Source: Prevotella sp. | GTDB taxonomy: Bacteria > Bacteroidota > Bacteroidia > Bacteroidales > Bacteroidaceae | Direction: 5' to 3' | Assembly: GCA_017471245.1 (NCBI GenBank) | Contig: JAFUVB010000075.1 | Location: 1 to 32,885 of the forward strand | Length of the DNA: 32,885 bases | Shown: positions 13,418-32,885 of the stretch, one piece after another | Layout: the number at the start of each line of letters is the position of its first letter | How positions within the stretch are numbered: position 1 is the first letter of the stretch | The notes under the pieces: generated by a model | The model's database searches: none | Seen by the model: only the letters and a program-made list of their open reading frames with translations | Told to the model about the DNA's origin: nothing | Position numbers and translations under genes: made by a program

Positions 13418-16185
13418 GATCTGCCGTGTTTTCTCTTGCTTCTGTATTGTGTGGGTGATTCGCCGTAAGCCTGTTTGAATGCCCTTGAGAAATAGCTGTT
13501 GTCGTCGAATCCGCAGTTCAGGGCGATGTCGCTGATTGGCATGTTGGTCTGCATGATTTGTCTCTGCGCCTTCTCAAGTCTCACTCGCGTCACGAAAGCA
13601 CCGATAGAGATTCCGGTGATGTTCTTCACCTTGCGGTTCAGCTGCGAATAGCTCAGGCATAGGCCGCTGGCGAGCGTGGAAGAAGAGAAGTCTTTGTCGC
13701 CGATGGTGGTCTGGATGCGCCGGGTGAGCAGATCGAGAAACTCCGCGTCGTCCTCGTTCATGTCCATCAGTCTGCCTTCGTTCTGTTCGTCGCCCGTCAG
13801 TTCATCTTTGCCGTGCAGCAGCACACGGCTGAATTTCTCGCGCAGCAGTCGCCTTCCTTCGAGCATACGGTGGATGAGCGAATACAGTTCTTCGGCGATG
13901 AACGGCTTTGTAAGATAGGCATCGGCACCGGCATCGATACCTTTCAGGCGGTCTTCCTCCTGAGTTCGTGCCGAGATGATGATGATGGGTATGTGGTTCA
14001 GGTCTTCAGTCTGCCTGATTCTGCGGCAAAGCTCGTATCCGTACATGTTGGGCATCATGATGTCGGTGATGATCAGGTCGGGAACGATGTCCTCAGCCTT
14101 AGCAAGTGCTTCCACTCCGTCTTTGGCTGTTGTCACGTTATAGTTGTCCTTGATGAGTGAGTGCATGTATTTGGAGATGTCGGCATTGTCTTCCACTAAA
14201 AGAATGGTTTCCTTGTCTTCCAACGGGTCTTCGTTGTTCCCTGCTTTCTCTGCGGGGGCTGAGTCCTTGAAGTCAACGGGTTTCATGCTGCTCAGTGCCG
14301 GATTCCAGGGCGTTGTTTCCATGCCTTCATATTTCATGGGGCCTGTCAGGGTGACGGTGGCACCGCCACTTTTGTTGTTCGAAGCCTTGATGGTGCCCCT
14401 CATGCGGCTCACAATCTGACTCACGTAGTTCAGTCCGATGCCCGTGCCGTTGGTGTTCTCCCGGTTGTTGCTGCCTTGGAAGAACATGGTGAACACGTAG
14501 GGCAGGTCTTCTTCGGGGAATCCGCAGCCGTTGTCGCTCACTTCGAGAATCATGTTCGTGCCGTCGGTGCTGGTCGATACGGTGATGGTTCCTCCCGGCG
14601 GAGTGTATTTCAGGGCGTTGCCGATGAGGTTGCGCAGTGTCTTCTCGGCATATTCTTCCACGAAGTCCACCTGCATGTCGTCGACGGTCGACTTGAAAGT
14701 GATGGTGATTCCTTTCGTGGCGGCATACTGGCGATAGCCCTCCACGGTCATCTTGGTGTAGAGAACGATGTTGCCGGTCACCCATTTCTCGTCGTCGGAG
14801 TTGTTCGACATGATTCTTGAAATGTCGAGCAGCTGGTTCACCAGCGTGAGCAGCGAGCCGCTTTGCTTCTCAATGGTGGCAAGCGTTTCGGGCATGTCCT
14901 GCTGGCTCACCTTCTTTTCTTTCAGCTGGTGGGCGAGTCCCATGATGATGGTGATGGGGGTTCGGAACTCGTGGGTGATGTTGGTGAAGAAGGTGTTGCG
15001 CAGCTTTTCCATCTGTTTCAGCGAGCGGTTGGAGCGCAGCCTGATCTGGTGGGCATAGATCATGAACCCCAATGCGGCGGCGGTGAGTGCGAAAATGATG
15101 AGGCCGATGAGGATGATGCTCCGTTTCTCTTTCTGTTCCTTGTCAAACGACTGCTTCAGGCTGTTGTAGTCTTTCCTGCTTTTCTGCCTTTCATAGTTCA
15201 GTCGCAGTGTCTGCAGCTTGTCGATGTTCTTCTCGTTCACGATGCTGTCGGTGATGTTGTCGGCCTGCTTGTAGTAGTAGAGAGCCATGTCCGGGTGTCC
15301 CGTTTGCTCCTCATAGTCGGATAGAATGTGATAGATGGCTGCGATGTGCTCGCGCGAATGGATCGTCTTGGCAGTGGCGTGCGCCTCCACGATGTGCGTT
15401 TTCGCGTCGTCCAGGTTTCCGGTCTTCAGGTTCACGCGGGCAAGTGCGAGCACCGACTCCAGCCAATGCCATTTGTCGTCGCTGTCTTGCATGATGCCGT
15501 AAGCCTCCTGATACTCTTTCAGGGCTTCGTCGTAGTTCCCCTTGTTCTCGGCAATCCTTCCGAAATGGTTGTGGCAGAGCGAGATGCCCAGGTCGGATTC
15601 AGCCTTGATATTGTGCTCCATGGATTTCCTGTAATACCACAATGCCGAGTCGATGTCTCCTTTCTGCTCCTTGATGCTGCCTATGTTGGCATAGTTGATA
15701 GCCATGCCCAGGTCGCTCTTCAGCAGCTGTTCGCCTTGCAGGGCGCGGTGGAACACGTTCTCGGCATTCACGTAGTCGCCTAACGACATCTGGATGTTTC
15801 CGATGCCGTTGAGCGATATCACCAGGTTTTTGCGTGCCTGATACGAGGTGTCGCCTTCCATTTTCTCGCAATAGTCTAATGCCGTGTAGTGGTAGGAGAG
15901 TGCTTCGTTGAGCATTCCCATGCGCCTCAGGTCGGTCGCCACGTTGTTGTTTGCCACCACAATGCTCTGGGCGTCGTTGATTCTCAGTGCTTCGTGCAGT
16001 GCTTTCTGGTGGATGTCTAATGCATGGATGAAGTCGGAAGCCTCGCGCAGTTCCTTTCCTTCCTTGATAAGCGACTCAATGCTGTCGCGTTTTTCCGCCA
16101 GTTGTTTCTGGTTCATCCTGCTTCCCGTGCAGGCGGCAAGGAGCAGAAACGTGACCACGAGGGCAAGCAAGTTCTTACTGTTCAT
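13414..16185 (-). CDS. TPR-sensor hybrid two-component system protein (histidine kinase, receiver, AraC output)
   Basis: 923 aa. The N-terminal signal or anchor has a lipobox-like LLLAACTG (C19). About six TPR-type helical repeats fill 40-320, then a coiled coil (~318-355), a membrane helix (~357-377), and HisKA with H405 (NITHEFRTP). HATPase_c follows with N523 (NLIGNALKY), D551 (DNGCGF) and a GTGIGL lid. The receiver (~660-775) has D708 as phospho-acceptor and K760. An AraC-type HTH lies at ~815-915 (SQLNRKVKNITGIS and YFSRAFKQAYGESP). All key residues are present. Typical PUL regulators use Reg_prop/Y_Y_Y sensor blades; the TPR sensor is a different class, so control of the RG-II operon is possible but unproven. 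It overlaps the downstream M16 gene by 4 bp. Confidence 0.93.
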   Translation of the reverse strand: MNSKNLLALVVTFLLLAACTGSRMNQKQLAEKRDSIESLIKEGKELREASDFIHALDIHQKALHEALRINDAQSIVVANNNVATDLRRMGMLNEALSYHYTALDYCEKMEGDTSYQARKNLVISLNGIGNIQMSLGDYVNAENVFHRALQGEQLLKSDLGMAINYANIGSIKEQKGDIDSALWYYRKSMEHNIKAESDLGISLCHNHFGRIAENKGNYDEALKEYQEAYGIMQDSDDKWHWLESVLALARVNLKTGNLDDAKTHIVEAHATAKTIHSREHIAAIYHILSDYEEQTGHPDMALYYYKQADNITDSIVNEKNIDKLQTLRLNYERQKSRKDYNSLKQSFDKEQKEKRSIILIGLIIFALTAAALGFMIYAHQIRLRSNRSLKQMEKLRNTFFTNITHEFRTPITIIMGLAHQLKEKKVSQQDMPETLATIEKQSGSLLTLVNQLLDISRIMSNNSDDEKWVTGNIVLYTKMTVEGYRQYAATKGITITFKSTVDDMQVDFVEEYAEKTLRNLIGNALKYTPPGGTITVSTSTDGTNMILEVSDNGCGFPEEDLPYVFTMFFQGSNNRENTNGTGIGLNYVSQIVSRMRGTIKASNNKSGGATVTLTGPMKYEGMETTPWNPALSSMKPVDFKDSAPAEKAGNNEDPLEDKETILLVEDNADISKYMHSLIKDNYNVTTAKDGVEALAKAEDIVPDLIITDIMMPNMYGYELCRRIRQTEDLNHIPIIIISARTQEEDRLKGIDAGADAYLTKPFIAEELYSLIHRMLEGRRLLREKFSRVLLHGKDELTGDEQNEGRLMDMNEDDAEFLDLLTRRIQTTIGDKDFSSSTLASGLCLSYSQLNRKVKNITGISIGAFVTRVRLEKAQRQIMQTNMPISDIALNCGFDDNSYFSRAFKQAYGESPTQYRSKRKHGRS

Positions 16186-17360: not shown

Positions 17361-17395
17361 AAGAAAATAACAATAATCATTAAAACTTGAAAAGT

Positions 17396-20300
17396 ATGAG
17401 AAGAATTCTAATTTCATTGTTGCTGATGTTCACCGCTGCGGTGACTTGGGCACAGCGATGGACGGTGACGAATGCAAACGCCTACCCAGATGAGACCATC
17501 GTGTACTTGCAAGTTAACCTCAACGGAACTACTGCAACAGACAATGACGGATTGGAGGTGGCAGCCTTCATCGACGGTGAATGCCGCGCTGCTCAAACCA
17601 GTCAGTATTCTCCGGCTTCGGGCGGAGGACCCGAAAACTCTTATCTGTTGAGGGTGAGAGGAAAAAGCGGCACCGATGATGGCAAGACCATCACCTTCAA
17701 AGCCTATTACGAGGGAGTGGTGTATAAGTTCGACTATACCACCACGTGGAGTCAGGAAACGGTGAGTGATATCCCGGTAAAAGTGGAGCTTTCGACTCTT
17801 GTGGGCATCAGCCGAGATTACACTGTAGGCACTGACGACAATCCTATTAATGTGTCACTGCCAGGAACTTACGACATGTCGGGCTTGGCAACCCTGCTGT
17901 TTGGTGCCGACCAGGTTGAGGAAAGTCAGGTCACGGGTTCGTCGGTTGATACTGACGAGACGGAGATTGCCATGCAGTGGGAAGCCGGCAATTCTGAAGC
18001 TTACTTGGAAATTGATGAAAACGGACTGCTCACAGCCAAGGAGGAAACAGAAAGTGCCTGGGTGGGAATGAATGTTGTGGTGAAAGACAAGGTTCAGATA
18101 GACGCGACAACCGGCAACCCTTCGGTCACCAACCACCGAAGCATTGACCCTCAGGGATTCATTGTGAGAATCGCAAGGCCTGTCGTTCCCGTTACCAGCA
18201 TCACATGCGACATACAAGAACTGACAGTATACAGAAACCAAGATGTAAGAAGCGCTCTCGACCAACACATTACTATTTCACCAGACGACGCAACAGACAA
18301 GACATGGTATATTGTTGACAACAATCGTTTGGTAAGTCAGGATGTCGCCAACGAAGCAGGCGAAACCACCATATTCATCTATCCCACCACACCAGCATCC
18401 GACGATGTGGCGCCTGCCGAGGTGAAGCTCACCATCAAGATTCGTCCTACCGACATCAGCGCCGATCCTACGACTGTCGACGTGGAGCTGGGTGACAATG
18501 TGATAGATGCCATCAAGGGCGTGATCACACTCCGTCCGACAGGCGAGTATGTTGACGACGAACTCACCATCACACCTGCCGATGCCACCCTGTATAATTC
18601 GCAGACAGGCATTGCCACAAAGGTAGGAACAACCACGGTAACCGTTACTCCCACCAATGCGGAGACGGCACAGGTGGCTGCACCACCATCGGTAACCATC
18701 ACGCTGAACGTGAAGAAGAGCGTTGCCGCCATTGCCTTGGAGGCAGGCGAGATTACCGTTTACCGCGGTGACAACGTGAAAGATGCCATTGCCGACAGAG
18801 TGACCATCACTCCCGATGATGCCACAGAAAAGAATTTCGAACTGGTGGAGGTAGCAGAGACATTGCTCATCTCCCAAGATATCGCTGCACAGTCTGGCGT
18901 TACGACGGTGAAGGTGCGGTCGGTTGACAACCAGCAGCTCGTTTCTGACAACAGCGTGACTGTGAACATCAAAGAGCGGCCTACAAGAATTTCTGTCAGT
19001 CCGGCAGAAATCACGGTGAACATCGGCGACAACGTGTATGACGCGATAGAAGCCATCGTTACGCTTGAGCCAAACGTAACCTATCTGGATCGCTCGCTCA
19101 CACTCAATGCCGGCAATGCAGCTCTCTATGATGCCAATTTCATTGCCAATCAAGTGGGAACGATGACAGTTACTGTTACCCCCACGGCAGCTCAGCCATC
19201 GCAGGACGGTACTACCCCGTCGGCCACTGTCACCGTGACCGTGGTTCAGCCAGTGGGAGGAATAGAACTGAAGGGCGACCCCATCACGGTTTATCTCGAA
19301 GATGATGTGACAGCCGCATTGGAAGACCAGGTGACCATCACGCCCAATGATGCAACCGACAAGACTTACGTAGTGGTTGAACAGGGTGATGCTGATATGA
19401 AACTGTCCGACGGCTTTGCTGTGTCGCCAGGTATCACCACTGTGAAGGTGGCTACTGCCAACGGCATGGAGTCGACGAAAACCGTTCAGGTGACCATCAT
19501 GATCCGTCCGGACAACATCTCCGGACCGGATGAAATCACTGTGAATGTGGGCGACAACGTGTTTGATGCCATCAAGAATGTCGTTACCATCAGCTCCAAC
19601 GATTACTCGGAGTCTGAATTCATCGACGATGAAATGGAATTGTCGGCAAGTGGTGCCGCAGCATCGCTCTACGACGACAACTATGTGGCAACGACCGTTG
19701 GACAGATGACAGTGACCGTGATTGCCACGGCAACAACGGGACAGCCAAATATGAACATGCTGACTAAGACTATCACCCTGAATGTGAAGAAGGGTGTCAG
19801 CTCGCTCACTGCCACCACCACCAACATCGAGGCCATGATCGGCGACGACGTGGAGGCAATGATCAGGAAACTGGTGACCGTGAATCCTGATGATGCTACC
19901 AATCAAAATTATAGTGTGAACCCGGACAATGCCTCCGGCAACGCTTTCAGCGACGGCATTGCCATGAGGGAAGGCACATGGACACTCATTGCTGTTTCGG
20001 ATGACAATCCGGAAGCAACGCTCACGTTCACCGTAGTAGTGAAGGAGCCTATCGCTCTCACCTTTGAGCCGACGCTTGAGACAACCGTAGGCGGCGAGAC
20101 CACGCTCACGATCCGAAAGACGGCAGGCACCGACAATGTGGATGCCAGCAAGGTGAACGTGGTGTTCGATAGCAACAACTACGGAGCTGTTGTCACAGCC
20201 ACGCCCGATGCAACAGGACTTGTATGGACCATCAAGGGCTTGCAGTTCGGTTCATACAACTTCACGGTTACATACGATGGTGCGGTACAAATGTCAACCG

Positions 20301-21472
20301 ATCAGAGTCAGGCGGGAACAATCAACATCTCGCAGGTGGTTGCTCCTACTTCAGGATGGGATTGGATCACGGTGAACACACTGCCTGGCGGAAGCGGATC
20401 CATCATTCTTCAAGCAAATTCAAACAACGGCTGGGTAAGCGAGATGAACGACGGCACAAACAAGATTATTGAAATCCGTTCACAGAATGCTCTGCTTTAT
20501 AACGACCCGACTCTGGGACTCTTTGGCGACATCACCGAACTGAAACCGAGCGACGGTATGTATAAGGTGAAGTCAGAGGGCAGCGTGGTGTTCAACATCG
20601 GTGTCGACGTGAATCCGATTTCTTCTGCCGACCTCCCGACAACGGTAACAGGCTACACATGGTTGGGCTATCCGCATCAGATCGACCAGCCTCTCACGAA
20701 TCTGGAAGCAGCCTTGGCAAGCACTGCCGAAGAAGGCGATATGATTCTCGGTAAGGAGAACTTTGCTGAGTTCAGCAACGGCGAATGGGTAGCTGTTGAC
20801 GGATTCACATTCAAGGCAGGCAAGGGCTACATGTACTACACCGCCGGAGCCGGAGGCAAGACCATCAACTGGGGAACAGCCACTGAAGTGATTGCCGACA
20901 ACAACACGCCAGCTCCAGCCAAGACATTGCGCGGCACCATCTGGAATTATGACATCAGCGCGTTTGCCGACAATATGCCTATCGTTGCTCAGCTCGACGG
21001 CATCAGCAATCCTGAAGACTACTCCATCGGTGCATTCGTCGGCGACGAGTGCCGCGGCGAAGGCAGTGTGGCAGGTGGCAAGTATATGTTCATCAACGTG
21101 GCTGGCAAGAGCGGAGAAACCGTCAGTTTCAAGCTCTACAACAAGCTGACAGGTGAGTATACCAACCTGAACGCGAAGGTGGCCTATGGAAAGAAGACCG
21201 GATCGGTTAGCAATCCGCTGTCGCTTCTCGCAGGAACCACCGGCATCGGTAATATTGCCGCTGAAGGTGACGGTTCGGCAATCTCCTACAGCAACGGTGT
21301 GATCCGTGTCAATGGAATGCCAAATGCACACGTAACGATTACCAATGCAGCCGGCAGCGTGGTGCGTACGTCTTCCGAAGCAGTTGTCTCTCTCGACGGT
21401 CTTGCCAATGGTGTATACATTGTCACCGTCAGCAACGGAGAACAGCGCGCAAGCAAGAAGATATTGAAGTAG
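17396..21472 (+). CDS. Exported Ig-like repeat protein with T9SS C-terminal sorting tail
   Basis: 1358 aa from the ATG at 17396. An in-frame TTG at 17387 would add three residues; ATG is preferred because the signal peptide (MRRILISLLLMFTAAVTWAQ) begins there. A small domain with the GECR motif (61-64) recurs near the C-terminus (DECR, 1217-1220). Seven BIG2/Ig-like repeats of ~88-95 aa fill ~265-884 in two alternating types (ITVYRGDNV... and ITVNIGDNV...). A further Ig-like module is at ~890-982. The last ~78 residues (about 1281-1358) form a Por-secretion type A tail (ANGVYIVTVSNGEQRASKKI). T9SS export and attachment at the cell surface are therefore inferred. No enzymatic motif was seen, so adhesin or scaffold is the most economical idea. 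It is the first gene of the plus-strand operon. Confidence 0.88.
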   Translation: MRRILISLLLMFTAAVTWAQRWTVTNANAYPDETIVYLQVNLNGTTATDNDGLEVAAFIDGECRAAQTSQYSPASGGGPENSYLLRVRGKSGTDDGKTITFKAYYEGVVYKFDYTTTWSQETVSDIPVKVELSTLVGISRDYTVGTDDNPINVSLPGTYDMSGLATLLFGADQVEESQVTGSSVDTDETEIAMQWEAGNSEAYLEIDENGLLTAKEETESAWVGMNVVVKDKVQIDATTGNPSVTNHRSIDPQGFIVRIARPVVPVTSITCDIQELTVYRNQDVRSALDQHITISPDDATDKTWYIVDNNRLVSQDVANEAGETTIFIYPTTPASDDVAPAEVKLTIKIRPTDISADPTTVDVELGDNVIDAIKGVITLRPTGEYVDDELTITPADATLYNSQTGIATKVGTTTVTVTPTNAETAQVAAPPSVTITLNVKKSVAAIALEAGEITVYRGDNVKDAIADRVTITPDDATEKNFELVEVAETLLISQDIAAQSGVTTVKVRSVDNQQLVSDNSVTVNIKERPTRISVSPAEITVNIGDNVYDAIEAIVTLEPNVTYLDRSLTLNAGNAALYDANFIANQVGTMTVTVTPTAAQPSQDGTTPSATVTVTVVQPVGGIELKGDPITVYLEDDVTAALEDQVTITPNDATDKTYVVVEQGDADMKLSDGFAVSPGITTVKVATANGMESTKTVQVTIMIRPDNISGPDEITVNVGDNVFDAIKNVVTISSNDYSESEFIDDEMELSASGAAASLYDDNYVATTVGQMTVTVIATATTGQPNMNMLTKTITLNVKKGVSSLTATTTNIEAMIGDDVEAMIRKLVTVNPDDATNQNYSVNPDNASGNAFSDGIAMREGTWTLIAVSDDNPEATLTFTVVVKEPIALTFEPTLETTVGGETTLTIRKTAGTDNVDASKVNVVFDSNNYGAVVTATPDATGLVWTIKGLQFGSYNFTVTYDGAVQMSTDQSQAGTINISQVVAPTSGWDWITVNTLPGGSGSIILQANSNNGWVSEMNDGTNKIIEIRSQNALLYNDPTLGLFGDITELKPSDGMYKVKSEGSVVFNIGVDVNPISSADLPTTVTGYTWLGYPHQIDQPLTNLEAALASTAEEGDMILGKENFAEFSNGEWVAVDGFTFKAGKGYMYYTAGAGGKTINWGTATEVIADNNTPAPAKTLRGTIWNYDISAFADNMPIVAQLDGISNPEDYSIGAFVGDECRGEGSVAGGKYMFINVAGKSGETVSFKLYNKLTGEYTNLNAKVAYGKKTGSVSNPLSLLAGTTGIGNIAAEGDGSAISYSNGVIRVNGMPNAHVTITNAAGSVVRTSSEAVVSLDGLANGVYIVTVSNGEQRASKKILK

Positions 21473-21479
21473 AAACATC

Positions 21480-21518
21480 TCTGGAGCCGGGAGCAGTCGT
21501 TGTGTTTCCGGCTCCAGA
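21480..21518 (+). terminator. Strong hairpin between operon genes 1 and 2 (partial terminator or processing site)
   Basis: An 11-bp perfect stem (TCTGGAGCCGG / CCGGCTCCAGA; 21480-21490 with 21508-21518) and a 17-nt loop, 8 nt after the stop of the T9SS-tail gene. The tract behind it (GTGTTTTGTCCTTTATT) is T-rich but interrupted. It may lower expression of the downstream genes or protect the 3' end of the upstream message. Confidence 0.55.
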
Positions 21519-21570
21519 ACGGTGTTTTGTCCTTTATTACCTACATTCAAAATAATTAAAGATAGACATA

Positions 21571-23301
21571 ATGAACAGGAAAAGAGTAAAGATAACAATA
21601 GCTGTGGCGCTGGCTATGTTGTCACCCAAGGTCGTTCAGGCTCAGGACATCATACAGATTGCCAAAAGCGACCCGTTGATTATAACGGGAGCAATCGGTA
21701 CGCAGAACACCTATTACCATTCGTCGGTGGGCGATGGCTATGCTTCTCCCCTTAGTAATATGTTCTATGCTAACCTCAATATCAGCGTCTATGGGTTTAG
21801 CATGCCTTTCTCTTTGATCTACACCAACGACAATCTGGATTTCAATTATCCACATATTTCTTTCAACCTGACACCGAAATATAAGAACTGGACTGGATAC
21901 ATAGGAAAAAGCGCAATGCCTTTCAGCCAGTACGTGATGGGCGTTTCATTCAATGGAGTGGGTCTGGAGTATAACGACAAGACTTTCAGGGCGGGTGCTT
22001 TCTACGGGAAGTTCAATTCAGCCATCAACGACGATCCTTATAATCCCGGAGCACGCGCGCCGCAATACCGCAGGATGGGCTGGGGATTCAAGGTGGGATA
22101 CGGCTCAGCCCGAAACTACATTGATTTGTATCTGTTGAGAGCCTACGATGTGATGGGCTCACTCAATGAAACATGGCGAGATCAGCTCAACGCGCAGGAA
22201 AACCTCGTTTTAGGAGTGAAGGGATGTGTTTCACTGAAGGACTGGCTGTCGCTGACGGCGAATGTAGCCACCTCTGCCATCACGACAGACAGGAATGCCG
22301 ACCTGATAGAAAGTGGAAAGGCAACGCAATACGATGACATTTTCAAGGCACGCTACAGTTCTCTCGTGCGTTTCGCGGGAGATGTCAGTGCCAACCTTAC
22401 ATTACCTAATTTTAATACATCTGTGGTCTATCGGCTGGTTCAGCCCGACTACACCTCGCTCGGCATCTATCACATGTCGAACAACTATCACAGCCTGGGA
22501 CTGAACATGAGCACTTATCTGTTCAAGAAAGTGTCGCTCGCCGGCAACTTCTCTTTCCAGGAAGACAATCTCACCAATGAGCAGCTGTATACCACACGCG
22601 GCTTTGTTTACGGGGCAAATGCAGGAACACGCCTTGGCGAGCATTTCAACCTGAGCGTGGGTTACAATGGTTACCTGCAGACCCAGGACAACGGCACGGC
22701 AATAGTCAACGACACCACGCGGGTGAAACGAGCCATGAACAGTTTCACGGTTGTTCCTTCCTACGCAGTGGAAACAGACAATTTTAGTCATGGCATCTCT
22801 TTCTCTGCCGCATACACGGAAAACAAAGACCTCAACAAATTCTCATACGGGATGAGCGACGTTACGTCTGTTGCCTTGGGCGCTTCTTATGCCTTGGGCG
22901 TGAACGACTGGGCGACCGACTTCGCTCTCAGCTTGAGCCATCAGCTGTCAAAGGGTTACGATACAAAATATACCAGCGATGTGGCATCGCTCACGGCAGG
23001 ACGTTCGTTCCTGAAAGACGATGCTCTCTCTGTCGAGGCAACGCTCTCTCTCTGTTATAACGAAGTGGAATACCAGTCGAAGAGTCTTTCCTTGGGTGGA
23101 GAGATTGCTGTCGGCTATACGCTCAAGGACGTGCATGCGTTTTCTCTCTCAGCCGGTGTGAACAAGTATGGCGACGTGAATGTCACGAAGACACGGTCAA
23201 GTCTTGATGCAACAGACATCACTGCCAGTTTCACCTACACCTATACGTTCTCTATTTTCGAAATGAAGAACCCGAAAGGCGGGGCAAACAAGAAAATGTA
23301 G
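21571..23301 (+). CDS. Predicted outer-membrane beta-barrel protein of unknown function
   Basis: 576 aa with a signal peptide of about 25 residues (ending VVQAQ). The rest is dense in alternating polar/hydrophobic strands with aromatic girdles (for example FSMPFSLIYTNDNLDFNYP, RNYIDLYLLRAYDVMG, SVEATLSLCYNEVEY, DITASFTYTYTFSIF). This is typical of a large beta-barrel of perhaps 20 or more strands. There is no plug, no TonB box and no POTRA domain that I can see, so it is neither TonB-dependent nor BamA-like. It sits 98 bp after the T9SS-tail gene and 53 bp before the giant gene. It may anchor or export the giant protein; that role is inference from position. Confidence 0.75.
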   Translation: MNRKRVKITIAVALAMLSPKVVQAQDIIQIAKSDPLIITGAIGTQNTYYHSSVGDGYASPLSNMFYANLNISVYGFSMPFSLIYTNDNLDFNYPHISFNLTPKYKNWTGYIGKSAMPFSQYVMGVSFNGVGLEYNDKTFRAGAFYGKFNSAINDDPYNPGARAPQYRRMGWGFKVGYGSARNYIDLYLLRAYDVMGSLNETWRDQLNAQENLVLGVKGCVSLKDWLSLTANVATSAITTDRNADLIESGKATQYDDIFKARYSSLVRFAGDVSANLTLPNFNTSVVYRLVQPDYTSLGIYHMSNNYHSLGLNMSTYLFKKVSLAGNFSFQEDNLTNEQLYTTRGFVYGANAGTRLGEHFNLSVGYNGYLQTQDNGTAIVNDTTRVKRAMNSFTVVPSYAVETDNFSHGISFSAAYTENKDLNKFSYGMSDVTSVALGASYALGVNDWATDFALSLSHQLSKGYDTKYTSDVASLTAGRSFLKDDALSVEATLSLCYNEVEYQSKSLSLGGEIAVGYTLKDVHAFSLSAGVNKYGDVNVTKTRSSLDATDITASFTYTYTFSIFEMKNPKGGANKKM

Positions 23302-23354
23302 AAATGCTTTTCTGATGTGACAAATATTATAGAAACCAGAAACAAGATTCAGTT

Positions 23355-26300
23355 ATGAAAACATATAGGTCAACCATCATAGCCATTGCACTCTTCCTCT
23401 CGGCAGTGTCATCGCTTGCCCAGGATGTGACAATAACAGTGACGCCCATTCAGAAGATTCTTCCTCCACAAGTGCTGCTGTATGTCTCCAATCCCGGTAA
23501 GTATTTCAATATATCAATCACGAACAACACGCAGAACACCCAAAACATTTATATGGGTCTGCAACTGGAACAGCGGTTCCCGTCAAGCGGATTGGCGGTG
23601 TCTACTCCTGCCAACCGAATTCCCCGGCAACCGATTTCCATTGGTCCGAATTCCACCCGCCAGTTGAGCCTTGTGGAAGTCAAGACATTGTTTAACCATA
23701 TACCATCGAATGAGATTTCAACCACTCCAGGACTTTTCGATGACTATCTGAACGGCTCCTTCGGACTGTTGCCAGAAGGCGACTATGTGGCTCATCTCAC
23801 TGCTTATAGATGGGATCCCGCATTGGCAAATCCCGTTGTCGTCAGCAATCCGAACAGCGGAACGTGTTATTTCACTGTGTGCTACAAGGCGCAGGCTCCT
23901 TCGTTCATAACACCGATGGTCACGGGAACGGAACTGTTGGCAGTGGCAAGTGTTGATGAGAGCAATGCACAGTTCACTTGGACAGAGTCAATGATCAACT
24001 GCAACCCGGCAGCATCGCAGTTCCGTTACGATTTCGTGGTGAAAGCCTTGCTGCCCAACCAGCAGCCAGATGATGCGATAACATATAATCCTGTGGTTTA
24101 TCATTCCGACGGGCTGATGGTGCCGATGTGCATCATTCCTCCTGCCGTGATTCGAAGCTTGAACAAAAGCATGGTCTACGTTGCTCAGGTAACAGCGCGC
24201 GAAGTAGGCAAGAATCCCTTGAACTATATCATGCTGGAGAACGAGGGAAAGAGCACATACCGCTTGTTCCGCTTTAAAAGCAGTTTGATAACAACCAGAA
24301 CGATAAATAAACCTGGCGGCGTCCACCCCACCGTTCCTTATTCAGGCGGCGTTAATACCAACACCAATTCGGGTGACGTGAACACCACTGCCAATGTAGA
24401 CATCGCTGCCGTAAGCGGCATGCTTTCGGGCGGCGGCGGACCCACAACCAGAAGCATTACCCCGGGAGCCGTCGGTGGAGTAGGCAATACCTTCACTGGT
24501 GGTGATGATGAAGACGATGATGAGAACAAGAAGAAGGATTATGGCATGAGCCTTGACTATGGCGTGCAGGAGGAAGTGGATGAAGAGGCAACATACACTT
24601 TCCGCAACCCGGAACTTGTGGAACCGCTTTTCTTCGAAGGCTCAGCCCGCAAGACTTTTGTTGAGGACGACATCAAGACTTCTTGGAAAAAGGCATGGTT
24701 CCTCGGTGGTGCCGGGGAGCGTCCCGATACCGTCAAGTTTGATTATCACGTAGCTCTTTACAAGGGTGAATGCGGACAGGAGTTTGAAGATATATTCAAG
24801 GAAAAACCTGTTTATACATTCGACACCAAAGAGACAGAGCACACCATTGCATGGAAAGACATAAAGGAGAAGGTGAATGTGAATGACTATCTGGTGCTTC
24901 ATGTCGTTCCTTCCACTACAACGGAGTCGGTAACCTTTGTCAACGACAGCGTGAACGTGAAGGATTTCGCGCTTTCCCAGTTGTTGTCAAAGAAATATTT
25001 CCAGTGCTCCGACATGGTGGAAATCACCAACACCACACCAACCACACTGTCAGCCAACGACCTGAAGGGAAAGGTGGTAGGATTAGGTCAGTATCAACTC
25101 ACCATCGACGAGATAACAAAAGTACCCGGAAAGAATGCCTTCAAGGGCAAAGGGCATGTGGAATGGAACCCGATGGGGTATACGGTAATGGTTGCCGTGA
25201 TGTTCGATGAACTGTACATCAACACCGACAATATCGTATATCAAGGTGATGCCGTAAGCTATCCTGATGAGAAGCATGAGGCTACAGATGCTGAGGTGGT
25301 CGACAAGATCTTTTCCGATACGGGAATTGACCAGATTATCGCTGACACTGGAATCCCTTATGCCGACATGATTACCGGCAACGGTGTGAGTGCACTGAAG
25401 GATATTGCGAAAACCTACGACATCAGCAAGTATTATAAATGGGTGAAAAACGGTGAAAACCTATATAAGAATTTCCTGCATGGAAATATCAGCGACCTGC
25501 ATTTGCCGTTGAAACTGCCCACTGATGTCAACAAGACGATGGTTGACATTCAGATTGCCAGCATGAGATTCTCACCGACGCATTCCACAATGAACGTCAT
25601 CGGTGAGGTGGTGCTTCCTAAGAGCAACTACACGAGGAATGAGATCCTGGTGTTCGGAGCACCGCGCATCTGTATGAGTCCCGACCGTGTTTTGCCAGAG
25701 GGCGGTGCCATCAGTCTTCTGTCCGATTTTAATATCACCGATCCCTCAACAAAGTTCGAGATGGACTTCAAGGCTCCCCAGGATGTCGTCAATCCCAAGG
25801 ATGGATGCTATATCAGTTGGAAAGCCGGCGAACTGGAGCTTGTCCTCATCGACATCGACATGAAGATACCTAAGTTGAGGAAGGTCGATTCTAACGGGAA
25901 TGCCACGAAGGAGAGACCTATCTTGAACATCAAGGAAAGCATCGCTTCATGGGATGACCTGGTGGTGACAGCTACGATGGATGACTTTGAAGTGGATGGA
26001 GTGAGTGGTTGGACCTTCAAGCCAGGATCAATCGTGTTCGACTATTCATGCTGGCGTGAAGGCGGAACAATGACATTGCCCGACAATTACAACTACGACA
26101 GCTTCGACTATAGCAAGAATGAGCTCAAGGCCAATCCTGGTCTTTGGCAGGGATTATATATAAATAATGTGGGAATTCTCTTCCCCAAGACATTGAAGTT
26201 TGGTGATGCCAAGAATACTGAGGGCGGACGCTTGAAGATTTCAGCCGAGAATATCATCTACGACAAGTCAGGCTTGACATTATCACTGAAGACCGGTTCG

Positions 26301-29300
26301 CTCTTGGATGCCAAGACGAGCAAACTGGGCGGATGGGCATTCTCCATCGACAACCTGCAGATGAATGTGCTGCAAAGCAAATTCAAGAACACTTTCTTCG
26401 AAGGGCAGTTTGACGTTCCTCTGCTCGATGGTAATATCGGCTATAAATGTGATATCACAAGCCAAGGTCTGAACGAGGAAAACCAGACGCAAGGCTATGA
26501 CTATACCTTCACCACGCAGCAGATAAACGGGCTGGAGCTGGATTTCTTCTTGGGAAGCGCCAACTTCGAGAAGAATCAGACTTACTTTGAGCTGACGGCA
26601 GGTGACGGCAAGGATACGCGTGTGGAACTCTGTGCAGGAGGTACAGTAACGATTACGGGAACCAAAGAGATCGACTCCAGATTGCCGTTTGGACTCAAGA
26701 TGCCGCGTATCAAGTTCGCCAAGTTGCGCGTCGGTAATTTTTCGCTTGCAGAGTCAAAGTTATACAAGAGCATCACAACAAGCAATTCTTGGACGCTGCT
26801 TGACATTAACAAGGCAGCAGGTTTCAAAGAGGAATATTCATTCACTGGCTCTTCAAGCAACAACAACTCAACAGTCTATTTCGGCCCAGGTGCCTGGAGC
26901 TTGGCTTCATTGCAGAAGAATATTGGTCCGTTTGGCTTCACGCTGAAGAAATATGGTCTGAAGAATAATGGGGAAAAACTGGGATTGAACCTCGAAGGAT
27001 CCATCAACTTCATGGACGACCTTATCAGTGTTGGCACAGATATTACCATCTGGGGAAAGGTGAACTTGCAGAACTTCTCGGCCTCTTACAGTAATACCGA
27101 TTTCAACAAAGCTCAATTCGATATGAGTTGGGCAGGTGTTGAACTTAGCGGCAGCCTTGAAGCCAAGAATGAGACAAAGGGAAATGCTACCGTGGGTGGC
27201 TACAGCGGAAAACTGCATTTCAAACTGCCTGGCGGCATCGTTGAGATAGACGGCACCGGTGGCTACTATTCTTATAGCGGTTCAAGTGCCGTGACCACTA
27301 CGGAGAATTCTCAGAACTACAAGTATGGCTACTTCATTGCCAAGGTGGCTGGAACCGGTCTGCACATTCCTCCCGTTGTAATCAACGAAGTGAAAGGCGG
27401 CTTCTATTTCAATTGTACTGCAGCAAAGGATCAGAACGGCGACCCCACACCTCGCAAGGGATTGATAGGAGGTGTGTTCGGCTTAGGTCTGGCTGTTGAG
27501 GGCGGTGAAAACCTGTTGAACGGAAAGTTCGACATGACGGTTGTCTATGACACGAAGTACAAGTGTCTCTCCACCTTCCTCATGAACGGTACACTGAATG
27601 CGCTCTCAACAGGAGGCGATGACGGAATTATTTCTGCCAAGACCACCATTGCTTACCAATGTCTGAAGGATAATAGCGGTCCTGGCGGCGCAATGCGGAC
27701 CAAGGACCAGTATTTCTCGTTAGACTTGTCTTGCGACGTGAAGATAACACCGGCAAATCTTGCGAATGCCATCACCACAACCATGGATCAGTACACAGGC
27801 ATGATGGCTGAGCTGGAAGGCAACATTAGTGCCGTAACTGGTTTATATAAGGATTCCAGCAGTCAGTGGAAATCAACGACAAGTGCCGGTCTGGACGATA
27901 CAATGGGTACCGACAGCGAGAACAATACATTCAAGGACGGTGAAAAGGCACCAGAGAATTCAGAGCATGGCAGCGGTGAACACCAGAAGAGCAAAGAGGT
28001 GTCTGCCAGTGCCGGCGGACATATCGCCCTGAACTTCAAGGTAACGAAGTATGAGAATTACACTGCATACAGCAAACCTAAATGGCACGTCTATTTAGGT
28101 GAGCCTGGCGACGGCACAGAGGCGAGCGAGGAAGAGAAACGCTGCGGTATCAAGATCATCGACCTGAAAGCCAAGGTGGTCACTGTGAAGATTGGTGCCA
28201 ATGCCTATCTCTGTGTGGGCAACGAACTTCCCAACAACGGAGTCTTGCCCCCTATTCCTGCTGATATCCGTAACTTCCTGAATGGAGGCTCTGCCGGTGC
28301 TGGCGTGGAGCAGGCAGATGCGGCAACTGTGAACCGCTCCCGCGAGGCAGCCATGGAGAAATTCCTGAAGAAAGCAAGTATTAGCGGCGGTGTAATGTTC
28401 GGCTACAAGGCATACGGCTACATCGACGTTGACTTGGGACTGCTCTATGCATACTTAGGTGCTGTGGCAGGTATTGATGTGTCGCTTGTCAAGATCAATA
28501 GTTTCTGCAACGGGAAACAGATGGGTATCAAGGGCTGGTATGCTACAGGTCAGGCATACGCCATGCTCGAAGCCAAGATGGGCATCCGCATCCGCTTGGG
28601 ATTCTATAACAACGACTTCGACATCTTGCATGCCCAGATTGGTGCCATGCTCAAGGCCGGATTGCCTAATCCGTTCTGGATGGTGGGACAGGCTCGCGTG
28701 AAGTTGAAACTCTTAGGTGGACTTATCAAGATCAACCGTGCGTTCAAGTTTGAGTGTGGTTCTGTCTGTCTGCCATACCTTGGCAGTCCGCTGGACAACT
28801 TCGACCTGTTCACCAACTGCTCGGTTGGCGGTGAGAGCAGGCAGGAAGGCTGGGAGGATGCCGAACCAATTACTCCTTCCACGCAGATTGTTGTGGAGAC
28901 CAGCACCGAAATGGCAACCCGCCTGAACCTCTATGATGAGAATTTCGCACAGCAATTGGCATTTGACCGTGGCGGCGACAACGACGACTACAAAGAGTAT
29001 TCCAATCGCTCTTATACCTTTAATTTCGCAACGAGATACTCCAAGCGCGAATCTGGAAAGAGTATAGGCAAAGAGCCTGTATATACTTGGAAAGAAGTTC
29101 CGGGCATAGGATTGACAGAGTTTGAAAGTCCAAACAAGGAGGGTGGCAAATATCAAAATGACAGTATCAACTACGGAAGAGATTACATCGCCGTGGTGTC
29201 CGACGGAAACCGTCACCGCATCTTGTTGAGCAACAGTGTGCTGAGGCCAAACCGCTATTATAAGTTGTGGCTCTATGGAAATGCCAAGGAAATCAAGGAT

Positions 29301-32300
29301 GGATTGGAAAGAGACCCGTATAGCATGGATACCCTCAACGGCACTTACGGCAACTACCCGTGGAGCACCATGAAGGTGTATTATTTCCGTACGGGCAATT
29401 TCAACGCATTCAATTCCTCGCCGTCGATAGGCATCCAGGATGATGTGGCTTTGGCATTCCCGTCGCCCGACGGTCACATGGTTCTCGACACATTGAATGC
29501 CACCCCCAGTGTGTATAGTGCATACAAGGTGGATATCAGCCGGCCGAATATCGCTTTCTTGAGAGATGTCAGTTCGAAGTTTGAAAACAACCGACTGAAA
29601 TGGGCTCTCTATGATGAAACAGCCCAAAAGTATGTCAGCGAGGATGTGTCAAATTACAAGTCTAGTTATGCATATGATAACTTGAACTGGTTGCCCGACA
29701 AGAAACTCATCGAGGAGAGCAATCTCGATCCGACACATACGTATGTCATCAAACTTGAATATGTAAGGCCAAAGACCGCCGCCGAGAAGCAAGCCGAGGC
29801 TGATGCGAAAGCCGCAGAGGAAGCGGCCAAGGCTGCTGAAGAGGCTGCCAACGCATCTCAATCGTCAGGCGGAAGCCAGTCGGGTGGATTCAAGCATGTT
29901 GAAGGCAGCGGTTCGGGAACCCATTACTTTGTTCATGGAGGAGTGGTTTATGAAGAAGGCAGTGTGCATCAGGCAGCCGTTCTGCAACAAATACAGAAGA
30001 AGGAGAGATTGTTCGATGCTGTGAAACAGGCTGGCACCACATCTTCCTTCGTTAACGAGGCCATCCTTACTCCTATGGAAAAGAGCCGCACTTCAGGTTC
30101 ATCCACGGCAAAGCGGGCTTCAACCAGTTCATCGACAGCAACGAAGGCTTCTTCCAGTTCGTCAAGCAGTTCTGGAACCGCCACGCCTGTGCGCTATCGG
30201 AGAGTAACCACCAAATACGTTCCGCTGGTGATACAGACTCCGTTGCGAGGAAATACGAATACCAGAATGGTTGGCAACATCAACGATGTAGGAAAGGTTG
30301 GCAACGTGGGCAGCAACGTAAAAATGCAGCAGCCTTCCGCACAGCCTGTCGTCAATAAAGAGCAGGCCGCAAAGAATTTTGCCGTGTCCGTGGGAAATAT
30401 CCTTACTCCTCAAAAGAGTGCTTCTTCCGTCGGGCAGATACAAAACGTGGATAAAAAGAATTCTTCTCTGGTCGTTGCCAACAAGGTGGTGAATGAATCT
30501 GAAGCAAAAAGAGTATCTTCTTCCAACATGGCCCGACCGTCAGCCGACAATATCTCGTTCAATAACCCTTTCACGAATAAAGAGGTGACAGACATAAAAG
30601 AGATGGCAGATCGTAACAACAGAGACATGGTCTTCACCAACAAGCCGTCAATGACGACTATTCCTAAGACGAAAGATGAAATCATTGCACAGTTCTTCCC
30701 CAATGGCAGACCGTCGAAAGGGAGATTAGGCAAAATGACCGTTGATGAAATCATTGATTATATAGAGAGCAAGAACGTAGATCGCGTAAGACCTGACATT
30801 GTAGAGGAAGTCAAAGCCGAACATAATGTTAAGGATGATCCTTATTTCGCGAGCCATCAAAGTGGCAGCGGCGGAGGTGGCAGCAGTTCTTCTTCTTCGT
30901 CATCGTCGCAGCCAGTATGGTCATGGCCGGAGCCCACTGATCAAGAGAACAAGCATGTGTTGCTGTTTGGTGTCAGGGTGAAGCCGTCAAATATCCTCAA
31001 TCCTGTAACAGAGCAAGTTGTCCAAGAGCCAATGCTTTCTTACAGTTATCCCTTCATGGGTGACCAGGAAATGGGTGTTGCGCATAAATATAGCATGAGT
31101 GACTCCCCCAACGACTATGATCTGGCATTCGATCAGAACGAGGCTCTTGTGAGTGTAGAGGGTGAGAGCGGAAAGAAGTCATTACGTCTGATTGATCCTT
31201 ACTATTATTACAACTATCTGGGAGGTTATGCCAATGTTTCCGGTTGGGAAGCCAAACGATACAAATATGATGATTATCCCAATCTCTCCACGCAGGGACT
31301 GATATTCACCTCAAAGTATCATACGGTTACGCCTACATTGTCGGAAGACCCGAAGCATTCTTACAATTTGGCGCAGGCAGCCCGTACCTACAGGAATTAT
31401 ACAAACACAGAAGACCAGATGAATCAAACCTGGAACATTGGATCGGCTGCCGCACGCATTGGAGGCATCCCTTATGGCCCCATCCCGAGCAAGAGTAATT
31501 TCCAGAATTATCCTTGGATTACAGATGAAGGCTTCTCCTGGATTAAGCCCGTAGCCTATACGAGTTTCGCCCCGTATTATGCCAAGAATACGGTTTTGAC
31601 GCGTGACATCTTCGAGCCCTATACCCAGTTGGCCAGTTTCGTAGATGCCGTTCATAGGGCAGCACGTTATTTCTACGATTTCTTTGAGGACGAGCGCGGA
31701 TGGTTTAACGACATCTACCGTGGGTGCTACATCAACTCTTATTCTTATTTCATTACGAGTCAGGGTGAGTGGCAGAGCCATCTTTTCCAGTCATCTGAAA
31801 AGTCAAGGATGTATACTGAAATACGCGACACGTTGGATAAGTTTAATATATATGAAAGAACTGCGCATCCTTCCTATTACAGTGCCGAAGTACAGCGTTT
31901 CATCAACGACTTCTGCTGGGGAGCATATAGCAGCGAAGATGTCATGGATGGTTTCACCGATTTCAAGGAGTTTCTCGACGATATCTACGAAACGAGGACG
32001 TACAACAGCCAAACACATAATTGGCAGTTCTCCATTAGCAAAAAGGACAAGAGCAAGTGCCTCGAATGGATAAATAAGTACAAGGCTTCTGGAACAGCAG
32101 ATGACATTTATAATAAGATTGCATTTTTGGTCTGTGCGTTTGACGATTTCTACAATCCGTTCCAAGGCGTATACACCGCAGTCTACAACTATCATAATCC
32201 TGTATGGGACGAACTCTGGGCTTCTTATCTGCGCGGCAAGTCTTCGATGTTCGACGACTCTTACATGTTCCAGATGCCCTATCAGCAGATACCGTTGATG

Positions 32301-32630
32301 TATGCATCGCGCTTCAAAGGGAGTAATAGCGACAGCAAGCGCACCAAGTTGGAAGAAGTGCTCGTGGGAATGGGTGGGAGCCATCCGCGCCGAAACCGTG
32401 ACGAGGCCGACAAGATTTGGTATCGCATAGAAGGAACGAAGGGTGCCAATTATTCCGACTATGAGAGGTTTGATGCCGGTAACACGAAATACGTGAAAGG
32501 AGTCATCATAGAGCGTCACCGCGCTAACACGTTCAGTTTCCAGAAAGGTGCATACGAAGTGTACAGATATCCTGGAGTGGACAAGTTCCCTGAAAGTGAC
32601 AAACGCATGGCGATAGATTTGAACAAATAA
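23355..32630 (+). CDS. Giant 3091-aa secreted protein of unknown function
   Basis: Signal peptide about 1-22 (ending SSLAQ). Residues ~23-190 resemble the N-terminal TANFOR-type domain (ITVTPIQKILPPQVLLYVSN), followed by an Fn3-like segment (~190-320). A Gly/Asp-rich linker with an acidic run is at ~350-395. About 400-1600 is a long beta-rich region. A conserved-looking block with NELPNNGVLPPIPADI is near 1620. Glycine-rich strands (GWYATGQAYAMLEAKMG, then LPNPFWMVGQARVKLKLLGG) fill ~1675-1800. A second Fn3-like part is ~1950-2140. An Ala/Glu coiled coil (~2145-2170) and Ser-rich linkers (~2245-2270, ~2500-2525) precede an unfamiliar Tyr/Trp-rich C-terminal domain (~2530-3091). No T9SS tail, transmembrane helix or catalytic motif was recognised. 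I do not know its function. Confidence 0.85.
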   Translation: MKTYRSTIIAIALFLSAVSSLAQDVTITVTPIQKILPPQVLLYVSNPGKYFNISITNNTQNTQNIYMGLQLEQRFPSSGLAVSTPANRIPRQPISIGPNSTRQLSLVEVKTLFNHIPSNEISTTPGLFDDYLNGSFGLLPEGDYVAHLTAYRWDPALANPVVVSNPNSGTCYFTVCYKAQAPSFITPMVTGTELLAVASVDESNAQFTWTESMINCNPAASQFRYDFVVKALLPNQQPDDAITYNPVVYHSDGLMVPMCIIPPAVIRSLNKSMVYVAQVTAREVGKNPLNYIMLENEGKSTYRLFRFKSSLITTRTINKPGGVHPTVPYSGGVNTNTNSGDVNTTANVDIAAVSGMLSGGGGPTTRSITPGAVGGVGNTFTGGDDEDDDENKKKDYGMSLDYGVQEEVDEEATYTFRNPELVEPLFFEGSARKTFVEDDIKTSWKKAWFLGGAGERPDTVKFDYHVALYKGECGQEFEDIFKEKPVYTFDTKETEHTIAWKDIKEKVNVNDYLVLHVVPSTTTESVTFVNDSVNVKDFALSQLLSKKYFQCSDMVEITNTTPTTLSANDLKGKVVGLGQYQLTIDEITKVPGKNAFKGKGHVEWNPMGYTVMVAVMFDELYINTDNIVYQGDAVSYPDEKHEATDAEVVDKIFSDTGIDQIIADTGIPYADMITGNGVSALKDIAKTYDISKYYKWVKNGENLYKNFLHGNISDLHLPLKLPTDVNKTMVDIQIASMRFSPTHSTMNVIGEVVLPKSNYTRNEILVFGAPRICMSPDRVLPEGGAISLLSDFNITDPSTKFEMDFKAPQDVVNPKDGCYISWKAGELELVLIDIDMKIPKLRKVDSNGNATKERPILNIKESIASWDDLVVTATMDDFEVDGVSGWTFKPGSIVFDYSCWREGGTMTLPDNYNYDSFDYSKNELKANPGLWQGLYINNVGILFPKTLKFGDAKNTEGGRLKISAENIIYDKSGLTLSLKTGSLLDAKTSKLGGWAFSIDNLQMNVLQSKFKNTFFEGQFDVPLLDGNIGYKCDITSQGLNEENQTQGYDYTFTTQQINGLELDFFLGSANFEKNQTYFELTAGDGKDTRVELCAGGTVTITGTKEIDSRLPFGLKMPRIKFAKLRVGNFSLAESKLYKSITTSNSWTLLDINKAAGFKEEYSFTGSSSNNNSTVYFGPGAWSLASLQKNIGPFGFTLKKYGLKNNGEKLGLNLEGSINFMDDLISVGTDITIWGKVNLQNFSASYSNTDFNKAQFDMSWAGVELSGSLEAKNETKGNATVGGYSGKLHFKLPGGIVEIDGTGGYYSYSGSSAVTTTENSQNYKYGYFIAKVAGTGLHIPPVVINEVKGGFYFNCTAAKDQNGDPTPRKGLIGGVFGLGLAVEGGENLLNGKFDMTVVYDTKYKCLSTFLMNGTLNALSTGGDDGIISAKTTIAYQCLKDNSGPGGAMRTKDQYFSLDLSCDVKITPANLANAITTTMDQYTGMMAELEGNISAVTGLYKDSSSQWKSTTSAGLDDTMGTDSENNTFKDGEKAPENSEHGSGEHQKSKEVSASAGGHIALNFKVTKYENYTAYSKPKWHVYLGEPGDGTEASEEEKRCGIKIIDLKAKVVTVKIGANAYLCVGNELPNNGVLPPIPADIRNFLNGGSAGAGVEQADAATVNRSREAAMEKFLKKASISGGVMFGYKAYGYIDVDLGLLYAYLGAVAGIDVSLVKINSFCNGKQMGIKGWYATGQAYAMLEAKMGIRIRLGFYNNDFDILHAQIGAMLKAGLPNPFWMVGQARVKLKLLGGLIKINRAFKFECGSVCLPYLGSPLDNFDLFTNCSVGGESRQEGWEDAEPITPSTQIVVETSTEMATRLNLYDENFAQQLAFDRGGDNDDYKEYSNRSYTFNFATRYSKRESGKSIGKEPVYTWKEVPGIGLTEFESPNKEGGKYQNDSINYGRDYIAVVSDGNRHRILLSNSVLRPNRYYKLWLYGNAKEIKDGLERDPYSMDTLNGTYGNYPWSTMKVYYFRTGNFNAFNSSPSIGIQDDVALAFPSPDGHMVLDTLNATPSVYSAYKVDISRPNIAFLRDVSSKFENNRLKWALYDETAQKYVSEDVSNYKSSYAYDNLNWLPDKKLIEESNLDPTHTYVIKLEYVRPKTAAEKQAEADAKAAEEAAKAAEEAANASQSSGGSQSGGFKHVEGSGSGTHYFVHGGVVYEEGSVHQAAVLQQIQKKERLFDAVKQAGTTSSFVNEAILTPMEKSRTSGSSTAKRASTSSSTATKASSSSSSSSGTATPVRYRRVTTKYVPLVIQTPLRGNTNTRMVGNINDVGKVGNVGSNVKMQQPSAQPVVNKEQAAKNFAVSVGNILTPQKSASSVGQIQNVDKKNSSLVVANKVVNESEAKRVSSSNMARPSADNISFNNPFTNKEVTDIKEMADRNNRDMVFTNKPSMTTIPKTKDEIIAQFFPNGRPSKGRLGKMTVDEIIDYIESKNVDRVRPDIVEEVKAEHNVKDDPYFASHQSGSGGGGSSSSSSSSSQPVWSWPEPTDQENKHVLLFGVRVKPSNILNPVTEQVVQEPMLSYSYPFMGDQEMGVAHKYSMSDSPNDYDLAFDQNEALVSVEGESGKKSLRLIDPYYYYNYLGGYANVSGWEAKRYKYDDYPNLSTQGLIFTSKYHTVTPTLSEDPKHSYNLAQAARTYRNYTNTEDQMNQTWNIGSAAARIGGIPYGPIPSKSNFQNYPWITDEGFSWIKPVAYTSFAPYYAKNTVLTRDIFEPYTQLASFVDAVHRAARYFYDFFEDERGWFNDIYRGCYINSYSYFITSQGEWQSHLFQSSEKSRMYTEIRDTLDKFNIYERTAHPSYYSAEVQRFINDFCWGAYSSEDVMDGFTDFKEFLDDIYETRTYNSQTHNWQFSISKKDKSKCLEWINKYKASGTADDIYNKIAFLVCAFDDFYNPFQGVYTAVYNYHNPVWDELWASYLRGKSSMFDDSYMFQMPYQQIPLMYASRFKGSNSDSKRTKLEEVLVGMGGSHPRRNRDEADKIWYRIEGTKGANYSDYERFDAGNTKYVKGVIIERHRANTFSFQKGAYEVYRYPGVDKFPESDKRMAIDLNK

Positions 32631-32646
32631 AGAAACAGTAAAGACC

Positions 32647-32885
32647 ATGAAGATATATAGGATACTATTCATGCTGGCAGCATTGGCCATAGCCGCCGTG
32701 CCGGTCAGTGCTCAGGTAGAGACAGAGGAGGAAGAAGTGATTGACACCTTCCCCAGCCGCAACCTTGCCGTCTCGCAAGACAGTGCTTTCGTGGGGTTCA
32801 ATACCACGGCCATCCGTCTGATGACCCGTGCCTACGGCGACAGCATCGTATTGCGATGGGGCGTTGACGACTATCCCACCTGGCG
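32647..32885 (+). CDS. N-terminus of a further exported protein (Fn3-like), cut by the window edge
   Basis: ATG at 32647, 16 bp after the giant gene, and open to the end (79 complete codons). The signal peptide is about MKIYRILFMLAALAIAAVPVSA, then an acidic ETEEEEV patch. The visible domain start (AIRLMTRAYGDSIVLRWGVD) is a typical first strand set of a fibronectin type III fold. It continues the operon: same strand, very short gap, also exported. Full length and function cannot be judged here. Confidence 0.75.
   Translation, partial: MKIYRILFMLAALAIAAVPVSAQVETEEEEVIDTFPSRNLAVSQDSAFVGFNTTAIRLMTRAYGDSIVLRWGVDDYPTW

Follow-up and report, generated by a model that had tools for sequence, protein, structure and literature searches.

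What kind of system is encoded by the four genes, here called A to D, that close a contig of a Prevotella genome (JAFUVB010000075.1)? The entire contig, 32,885 bp, was taken as the window. A reading of these letters without database searches (the sequence-only reading) had proposed that the four products form an undescribed system resembling an assembly line, made of an exported repeat protein with a tail for the type IX secretion system (T9SS), an outer-membrane barrel, a secreted giant and an Fn3-like protein. We conclude that the unit is real, conserved and partly known, consisting of a divergent TANFOR-type giant and a dedicated, unnamed barrel. The TANFOR N-terminus had already been described; the point of most interest is its phylum-wide pairing with the barrel, which is most likely the giant's dedicated outer-membrane partner in a T9SS-linked display or delivery system.

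The barrel and the giant are encoded side by side across the phylum

The giant, the product of gene C, comprises a TANFOR-type N-terminal region, a conserved core and a variable tail (Table 1). Profiles of the first two were applied to 40 barrel loci that had been hand-picked from strong matches and spread over genera; this sample is non-random, four loci found through TANFOR were left out of it, and neither profile had been trained on it. A giant with the TANFOR-type N-terminus, the core or both is encoded at 32 of the 40 loci. Barrel and giant are co-oriented in all 31 loci where this could be measured, and in 29 they overlap or lie at most 100 bp apart. Of the parts of the giant, the TANFOR-type N-terminus is the barrel's most frequent neighbour. 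D-type proteins are encoded at 19 of the 40 loci, 18 of which have the giant as well.

The pairing was also followed from the giant. Distances from core to barrel were taken for 35 of 47 core matches, excluding the 12 loci that had served as training data for that profile. A barrel lies within 8 kb in 24 of the 35 and within 20 kb in 31, and the remaining four have no barrel on the same contig. Within the genus, 6 of 60 genomes have the giant, and a full-strength barrel is confined to the same 6; four further genomes have weak partial barrel matches only.

Among the 395 genomes of the phylum that were searched, barrel relatives occur in at least 162, a lower bound since the genome searches score few candidates per genome. 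Matches stronger than about 1e-40 were obtained in 75 of these 162; the weaker partial matches, in frames of 800–900 amino acids (aa), may belong to another barrel family. At loci L116 (2514–11618) and L119 (9707–16144), giants of 3034 and 2145 aa are encoded near the barrel, and neither profile, TANFOR or core, recognises them; the barrel may thus have partners among other classes of giant.

The giant has a TANFOR-type N-terminus fused to a conserved core

TIGR02542, the published TANFOR model, gave no match in the window genome at E<=10; across the phylum it matched 12 of 395 genomes at E<=0.001, none of them above its cut-off. A TANFOR profile was built from proteins that TIGR02542 had found below its cut-off, ten in all from nine genomes. 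This profile scored 51.3 bits with the N-terminus of the window giant and below 0 with four control proteins of the window. Profile–profile comparison of the giant's N-terminus with the TANFOR group returned a probability of 99.3%, and a BLAST bridge connects the two, the giant of the same-genus genome G053 matching TANFOR protein T348 at E about 2e-12. Because of the profile score, the profile–profile result and the BLAST link, residues 1–317 of the giant are TANFOR-type by sequence, and we rejected the description of the giant as a protein without known relatives. The set is therefore not wholly undescribed: a profile match to a described apparatus exists for the giant's N-terminus only, and for the barrel we found no paper. 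One TANFOR protein, from genome G297, ends in a colicin-type DNase.

The core was found in 47 of the 395 genomes. It has no relative among PDB sequences, where N-terminal queries likewise gave no useful match, and a Pfam scan of 21 members returned no convincing family, only scattered weak matches (Big_5 in 5 of the 21). The strongest beta-amphipathic signal of the giant spans residues 1100–1830. The sequence-only reading had held that the giant shares parts with large proteins elsewhere in the Bacteroidota; the phylum-wide core and TANFOR matches bear this out. In the Prevotella branch the TANFOR region and the core form a single polypeptide; at L061, L062, L115 and L118 they are encoded by separate genes of one cluster, and in G301, G415, G384 and G297 the TANFOR matches lie about 5–13 kb from the barrel and core matches. 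Parts that form one polypeptide in some lineages and neighbouring genes in others usually cooperate, and we infer as much for these two. At eight loci (L125, L126, L129, L130, L132, L138, L139 and L140) the barrel's partner is about 3900–4060 aa or longer and has a TANFOR-type N-terminus with no match to the core profile.

The barrel belongs to a family without a model

Eleven barrel members had no NCBIfam match at E<=1, and against Pfam at the same threshold they gave weak matches to four unrelated families (best E 0.002); no credible relative was found among PDB sequences. In the window itself, B, C and the fragment of D had no Pfam or NCBIfam match at E<=1. A C-terminal F is present in 33 of 50 members of the barrel family, compared with 4.7% of 383 other open reading frames at those loci. 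Beta periodicity averages 1.17 in the family versus 0.96 in the other frames (standard deviation 0.16). These two properties indirectly support the prediction, made in the sequence-only reading, that gene B encodes an outer-membrane barrel.

We considered whether the barrel is PorP/SprF and rejected this, the profile–profile probability being 6.5% with weak scores. A PorP profile reached 7–11 bits with 3 of 50 barrels and the barrel profile 8 bits with 1 of 12 PorP proteins; scores of 7–11 bits may be what two barrel families can show. TIGR03519, the model of the PorP/SprF family, matched none of 11 barrels at E<=1. In open-access literature on TANFOR, TIGR02542 or polymorphic toxins with type IX secretion, the barrel is undescribed in titles and abstract openings.

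The barrel co-occurs with the T9SS translocon

SprA, the T9SS translocon, was found in 304 of the 395 genomes, the window genome (G000) among them. It is present in all 162 barrel genomes listed, and the barrel is present in none of the 91 genomes without SprA (Fisher p about 2e-25, ancestry ignored). Within the order, SprA occurs in 96 of 100 genomes and is little informative. T9SS sorting domains were detected at E<=0.01 in 0 of 53 C-termini of giants, a set that also covers core and TANFOR proteins encoded on their own, and in 0 of 20 C-termini of D proteins. The giant as ordinary T9SS cargo with a C-terminal signal was rejected on the result for the 53 C-termini.

The tail of the giant is variable and was probably exchanged recently

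The tail of the window giant had no Pfam match at E<=0.5, and its best match among PDB sequences was at E 0.8; NCBIfam gave nothing for the whole giant at E<=1 or for its last 150 aa at E<=0.01. No small immunity gene lies 3' of the giant, D following after 16 bp. In L004, the locus of Prevotella sp. UBA4268, proteins of 740 aa, 238 aa (with a lipobox) and 749 aa (with a lipobox) follow the giant, again with no small immunity gene. Since the tail has no known domain and no small immunity gene is found downstream, the window giant is, on its sequence, not classed as a toxin.

Aligned with six sister giants from its genus, the window giant is 33–46% identical in N-terminus and core and 16–26% in the tail. 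About 200 tail residues weakly resemble the tails of two paralogues in G040 (22 and 16 bits), which carry repeats of DUF285/leucine-rich repeat (LRR) type further along, and the tails of G021, G049 and G040 have a common stretch of their own (27–36% identity). Across relatives the tails vary, with LRR repeats, one DNase and unassigned types. Genome G040 has three paralogous giants on three contigs (L055, L056 and L057), two of them, giants of 4454 and 4404 aa, with long DUF285/LRR tails and the third with a different tail.

Identity to the UBA4268 giant runs the other way, being 86% in the N-terminus, 87% in the core and 99% in the tail. Per 500 bp of DNA, it is 71–82% along the giant to about 28500 and then 97–99.7% to the contig end. 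The final densely spaced difference is at 28571, corresponding to residue about 1739, beside one of the core's most conserved stretches; 934 differences fall in the 4001 bp before this junction and 50 in the 4028 bp after it, mainly at third codon positions on both sides (32 of the 50 after it). These data suggest that the 3' part of the giant was probably exchanged recently between lineages. We think it unlikely that the jump is an assembly chimera rather than biology: L004 comes from a metagenome-assembled genome and the window contig terminates within the shared segment, both of which would fit a chimera, but the shared segment is not identical, its differences favour third positions, and the reading frame is unbroken.

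Proposed mechanism and alternatives

We put at about even the chance that the products of the operon make up a T9SS-linked system for surface display or delivery, centred on the TANFOR-type giant. The giant would reach the periplasm via Sec. The barrel, in the outer membrane, would bind the conserved N-terminal part of the giant as a shuttle, an anchor or both, a role comparable to that of SprF in serving SprB except that it would act on the opposite end of the cargo, and export of the giant would proceed through the T9SS translocon. The core would serve as a scaffold and the exchangeable tail as the outward-facing active end, with adhesin-like repeats in some paralogues and a nuclease in one relative. 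D may be a co-exported accessory, and A and the two lipoproteins may be surface additions of the Prevotella branch. A giant paired with an outer-membrane partner of its own agrees better with the gene orders than the assembly line first imagined, for which we found no support of its own.

That the barrel and the TANFOR-type N-terminus represent a third class of T9SS cargo and partner, with an N-terminal sorting or anchoring signal, an unnamed barrel family and C-terminal tails (toxins, adhesins and unassigned types) swapped through recombination in the conserved core, is a tentative proposal, possible rather than probable. If true, the class would be widespread, given the barrel's distribution, and would provide TANFOR toxins with their missing export component, and T9SS bacteria would possess a kind of surface or toxin delivery overlooked by searches for C-terminal sorting domains. 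With a phylum-wide barrel neighbour that amounts to one deletable gene, the export route of TANFOR proteins becomes directly testable.

Several observations weigh against such a system. Eight of the 40 barrel loci (L104, L110, L111, L116, L119, L121, L128 and L133) lack a giant of this kind. Beyond the genus the correspondence of barrel and giant is looser: in five genomes of the order a strong barrel is accompanied by no giant match in a less sensitive single-sequence search, barrel and core are on separate contigs in G077, the nearest barrel in G078 is about 25 kb off, and G065 has a core fragment on a 4-kb contig with no barrel match. The SprA link is confounded by ancestry, 15 of 20 listed SprA-less genomes being of one family, and G040 has three giants and no SprA match in a genome that is 61% complete. 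Sorting-domain models can overlook divergent signals. A structure model of the barrel made from two sequences was unusable (AlphaFold mean predicted local distance difference test score 26.4), and the N-terminus as contact and the barrel as shuttle are roles that we infer.

The barrel might instead be the pore that exports the giant, in a dedicated two-partner route free of T9SS. Its position directly next to the giant in most sampled loci and the lack of a detected T9SS signal in the giant would suit such a route, which we nevertheless hold to be very unlikely given the strict co-occurrence of barrel and SprA and the absence of any POTRA or two-partner-secretion family from the Pfam matches of barrel and giant. 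As to what the giant does outside, in the Prevotella branch it could be a toxin-free structural adhesin or surface stalk whose tail binds host or matrix. The LRR/DUF285 tails of two paralogues in one relative point that way, as do the T9SS-tailed surface protein and lipoproteins encoded alongside, the failure to detect a toxin domain and a C–D gap that leaves no small gene. We rate this as somewhat unlikely, because a TANFOR protein of a relative has a C-terminal colicin-type DNase, TANFOR proteins are toxins in the main text of PMC7073777, and an adhesin domain is likewise absent from the window tail.

At the other extreme, the giant would be a full antibacterial polymorphic toxin, its tail a toxin domain of an unrecognised family. 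This is distinctly unlikely in our estimate: Pfam, NCBIfam and PDB sequences reveal no toxin domain, the gene 16 bp downstream encodes an Fn3-like exported protein and not a small immunity protein, and two large or lipobox proteins come next in UBA4268. Consistent with a toxin are the TANFOR-type N-terminus, a tail that is unrelated or weakly related to the tails of sister giants and a recent exchange of the 3' segment, which is typical of toxin tips. We retain T9SS-linked display or delivery, with the barrel as partner of the giant, as the preferred reading.

Operon layout and neighbouring genes

The reading frames confirm the layout given by the sequence-only reading, with four genes in one direction, spacers of 98, 53 and 16 bp and a giant of 3091 aa. 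The set exceeds chance, because relatives and other members of the phylum show the same order, and in this sense the operon stands as one conserved unit. All four products have an apparent Sec signal peptide, as judged by eye. In gene A, an in-frame TTG at 17387 lies upstream of the ATG.

Table 1. Features of the operon region in the window
Feature	Coordinates	Strand	Basis
Gene A, exported repeat protein, 1358 aa from ATG 17396	17396..21472	+	relatives upstream of barrel
T9SS type A sorting domain of A	about 21302–21469	+	TIGR04183
Gene B, predicted outer-membrane barrel, 576 aa, family without Pfam or NCBIfam model	21571..23301	+	
Gene C, giant, 3091 aa	23355..32630	+	
TANFOR-type N-terminal region by sequence, residues 1–317 including signal peptide	23355..24305	+	profile and profile–profile comparison
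Conserved core, residues 459–2201; separate protein in some relatives	24729..29957	+	comparison with relatives
Segment ~99% identical to L004, probable recent exchange	28572..32885	+	
Variable tail, residues 2202–3091, no recognised domain	29958..32627	+	
Gene D, 5' part, 79 codons, exported, Fn3-like (740 aa in L004)	32647..32885	+	

The first gene had been read as T9SS-tailed, and this held: the C-terminus of protein A matches the type A sorting domain TIGR04183 with 28.9 bits (cut-off 23); with the Pfam equivalent, PF18962, it scores 21.9 bits, under the cut-off of 27. Relatives of A lie 5' of the barrel in all five Prevotella-branch loci with upstream DNA (UBA4268, G053, G021, G049 and G040c). 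G049 and G040c apparently have two tandem A-type genes each, one of which is cut in each case by the border of the fetched region. The order of the four genes is conserved among Prevotella-branch relatives, and elsewhere the earlier expectation of a shared order applies in part: barrel–giant–Fn3 neighbourhoods are retained in other classes, whereas the A-type T9SS-tailed protein keeps its place in the Prevotella branch and is missing from most other mapped barrel loci.

The frame of gene D is open from 32647 and truncated by the contig end, and the remainder of the gene is absent from all other contigs of the window genome. The sequence past 32885 could be followed through L004, the relative returned by a contig scan, whose giant is 88% identical over its whole length. 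There D is completed at 740 aa and is followed by the 238-aa protein, which has a Big_2 domain, and the 749-aa protein (both lipoboxes were seen by eye). The name Fn3-like is hardly readable from the 79 codons of the window; the L004 protein gives it a weak fn3 match (E 0.005, under the cut-off). Of seven loci in the Prevotella branch, six have the 238-aa protein and five the 749-aa protein, counts in which some positions are hidden by overlapping frames in gene picking. A promoter and terminator scan of the operon end in L004 gave no more sites than shuffled sequence.

A repeat of about 90–130 bp lies 3' of the operon in L004 (about 24660–24765). It has some 60 scattered matches in the window genome, some of them on both strands, and one copy in the window at 1553–1684; the element is probably an abundant repeat, intergenic and partly palindromic. 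Divergent from the operon, on the minus strand at 13414–16185, is a gene for a hybrid histidine kinase-like protein with a receiver domain, which matches many NCBIfam kinase models, every one under its cut-off, and whose region is conserved in L004. This kinase could be a regulator of the operon; that the upstream gene is a T9SS part was rejected when the check gave a hybrid histidine kinase. Also on the minus strand, at 7271–11401, a 1376-aa protein has weak matches under cut-off to arabinosidase/arabinofuranosidase models and is probably a multidomain glycosidase.

Comparison with known systems

The operon differs from two-partner secretion (type Vb) in that neither the giant nor any of 11 barrels has a TpsB, POTRA or TPS-domain match in Pfam at E<=1. 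With T9SS type A cargo it has in common the type A sorting domain of protein A; unlike such cargo, the giant and the 20 tested D proteins have no sorting domain.

The likeness to TANFOR toxins is closer. In 2020 the TANFOR region was reported as the N-terminal part of Bacteroidetes polymorphic toxins (Jana, Salomon and Bosis; PMC7073777), which the paper's main text proposes as T9SS substrates with T9SS-tailed and Fn3 proteins as neighbours. The window giant shares with them its TANFOR-type N-terminus, a Sec signal peptide (by eye), SprA in the genome and the T9SS-tailed and Fn3 neighbours. It is unlike them in being missed by TIGR02542, in being fused to a large core and in having no detected C-terminal toxin domain or small immunity gene. 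A further difference from TANFOR toxins, as presented in that main text, where the words 'barrel' and 'porin' are absent, is the dedicated barrel that adjoins the window giant.

SprB–SprF, as presented in the available parts of PMC9143113 and PMC12618676, is a giant cargo that requires the barrel of the adjacent gene for secretion and anchoring. Compared with those descriptions, the window barrel is of a different family and about twice the length of SprF, and, unlike type B cargo, the giant has no C-terminal type B sorting domain (0 of 53 at E<=0.01). Like SprB–SprF and PorP-like type B pairs, as far as these are described there, the giant is encoded beside an outer-membrane barrel in T9SS genomes, and by analogy SprB–SprF appears to be the closest working model for the barrel–giant pair.

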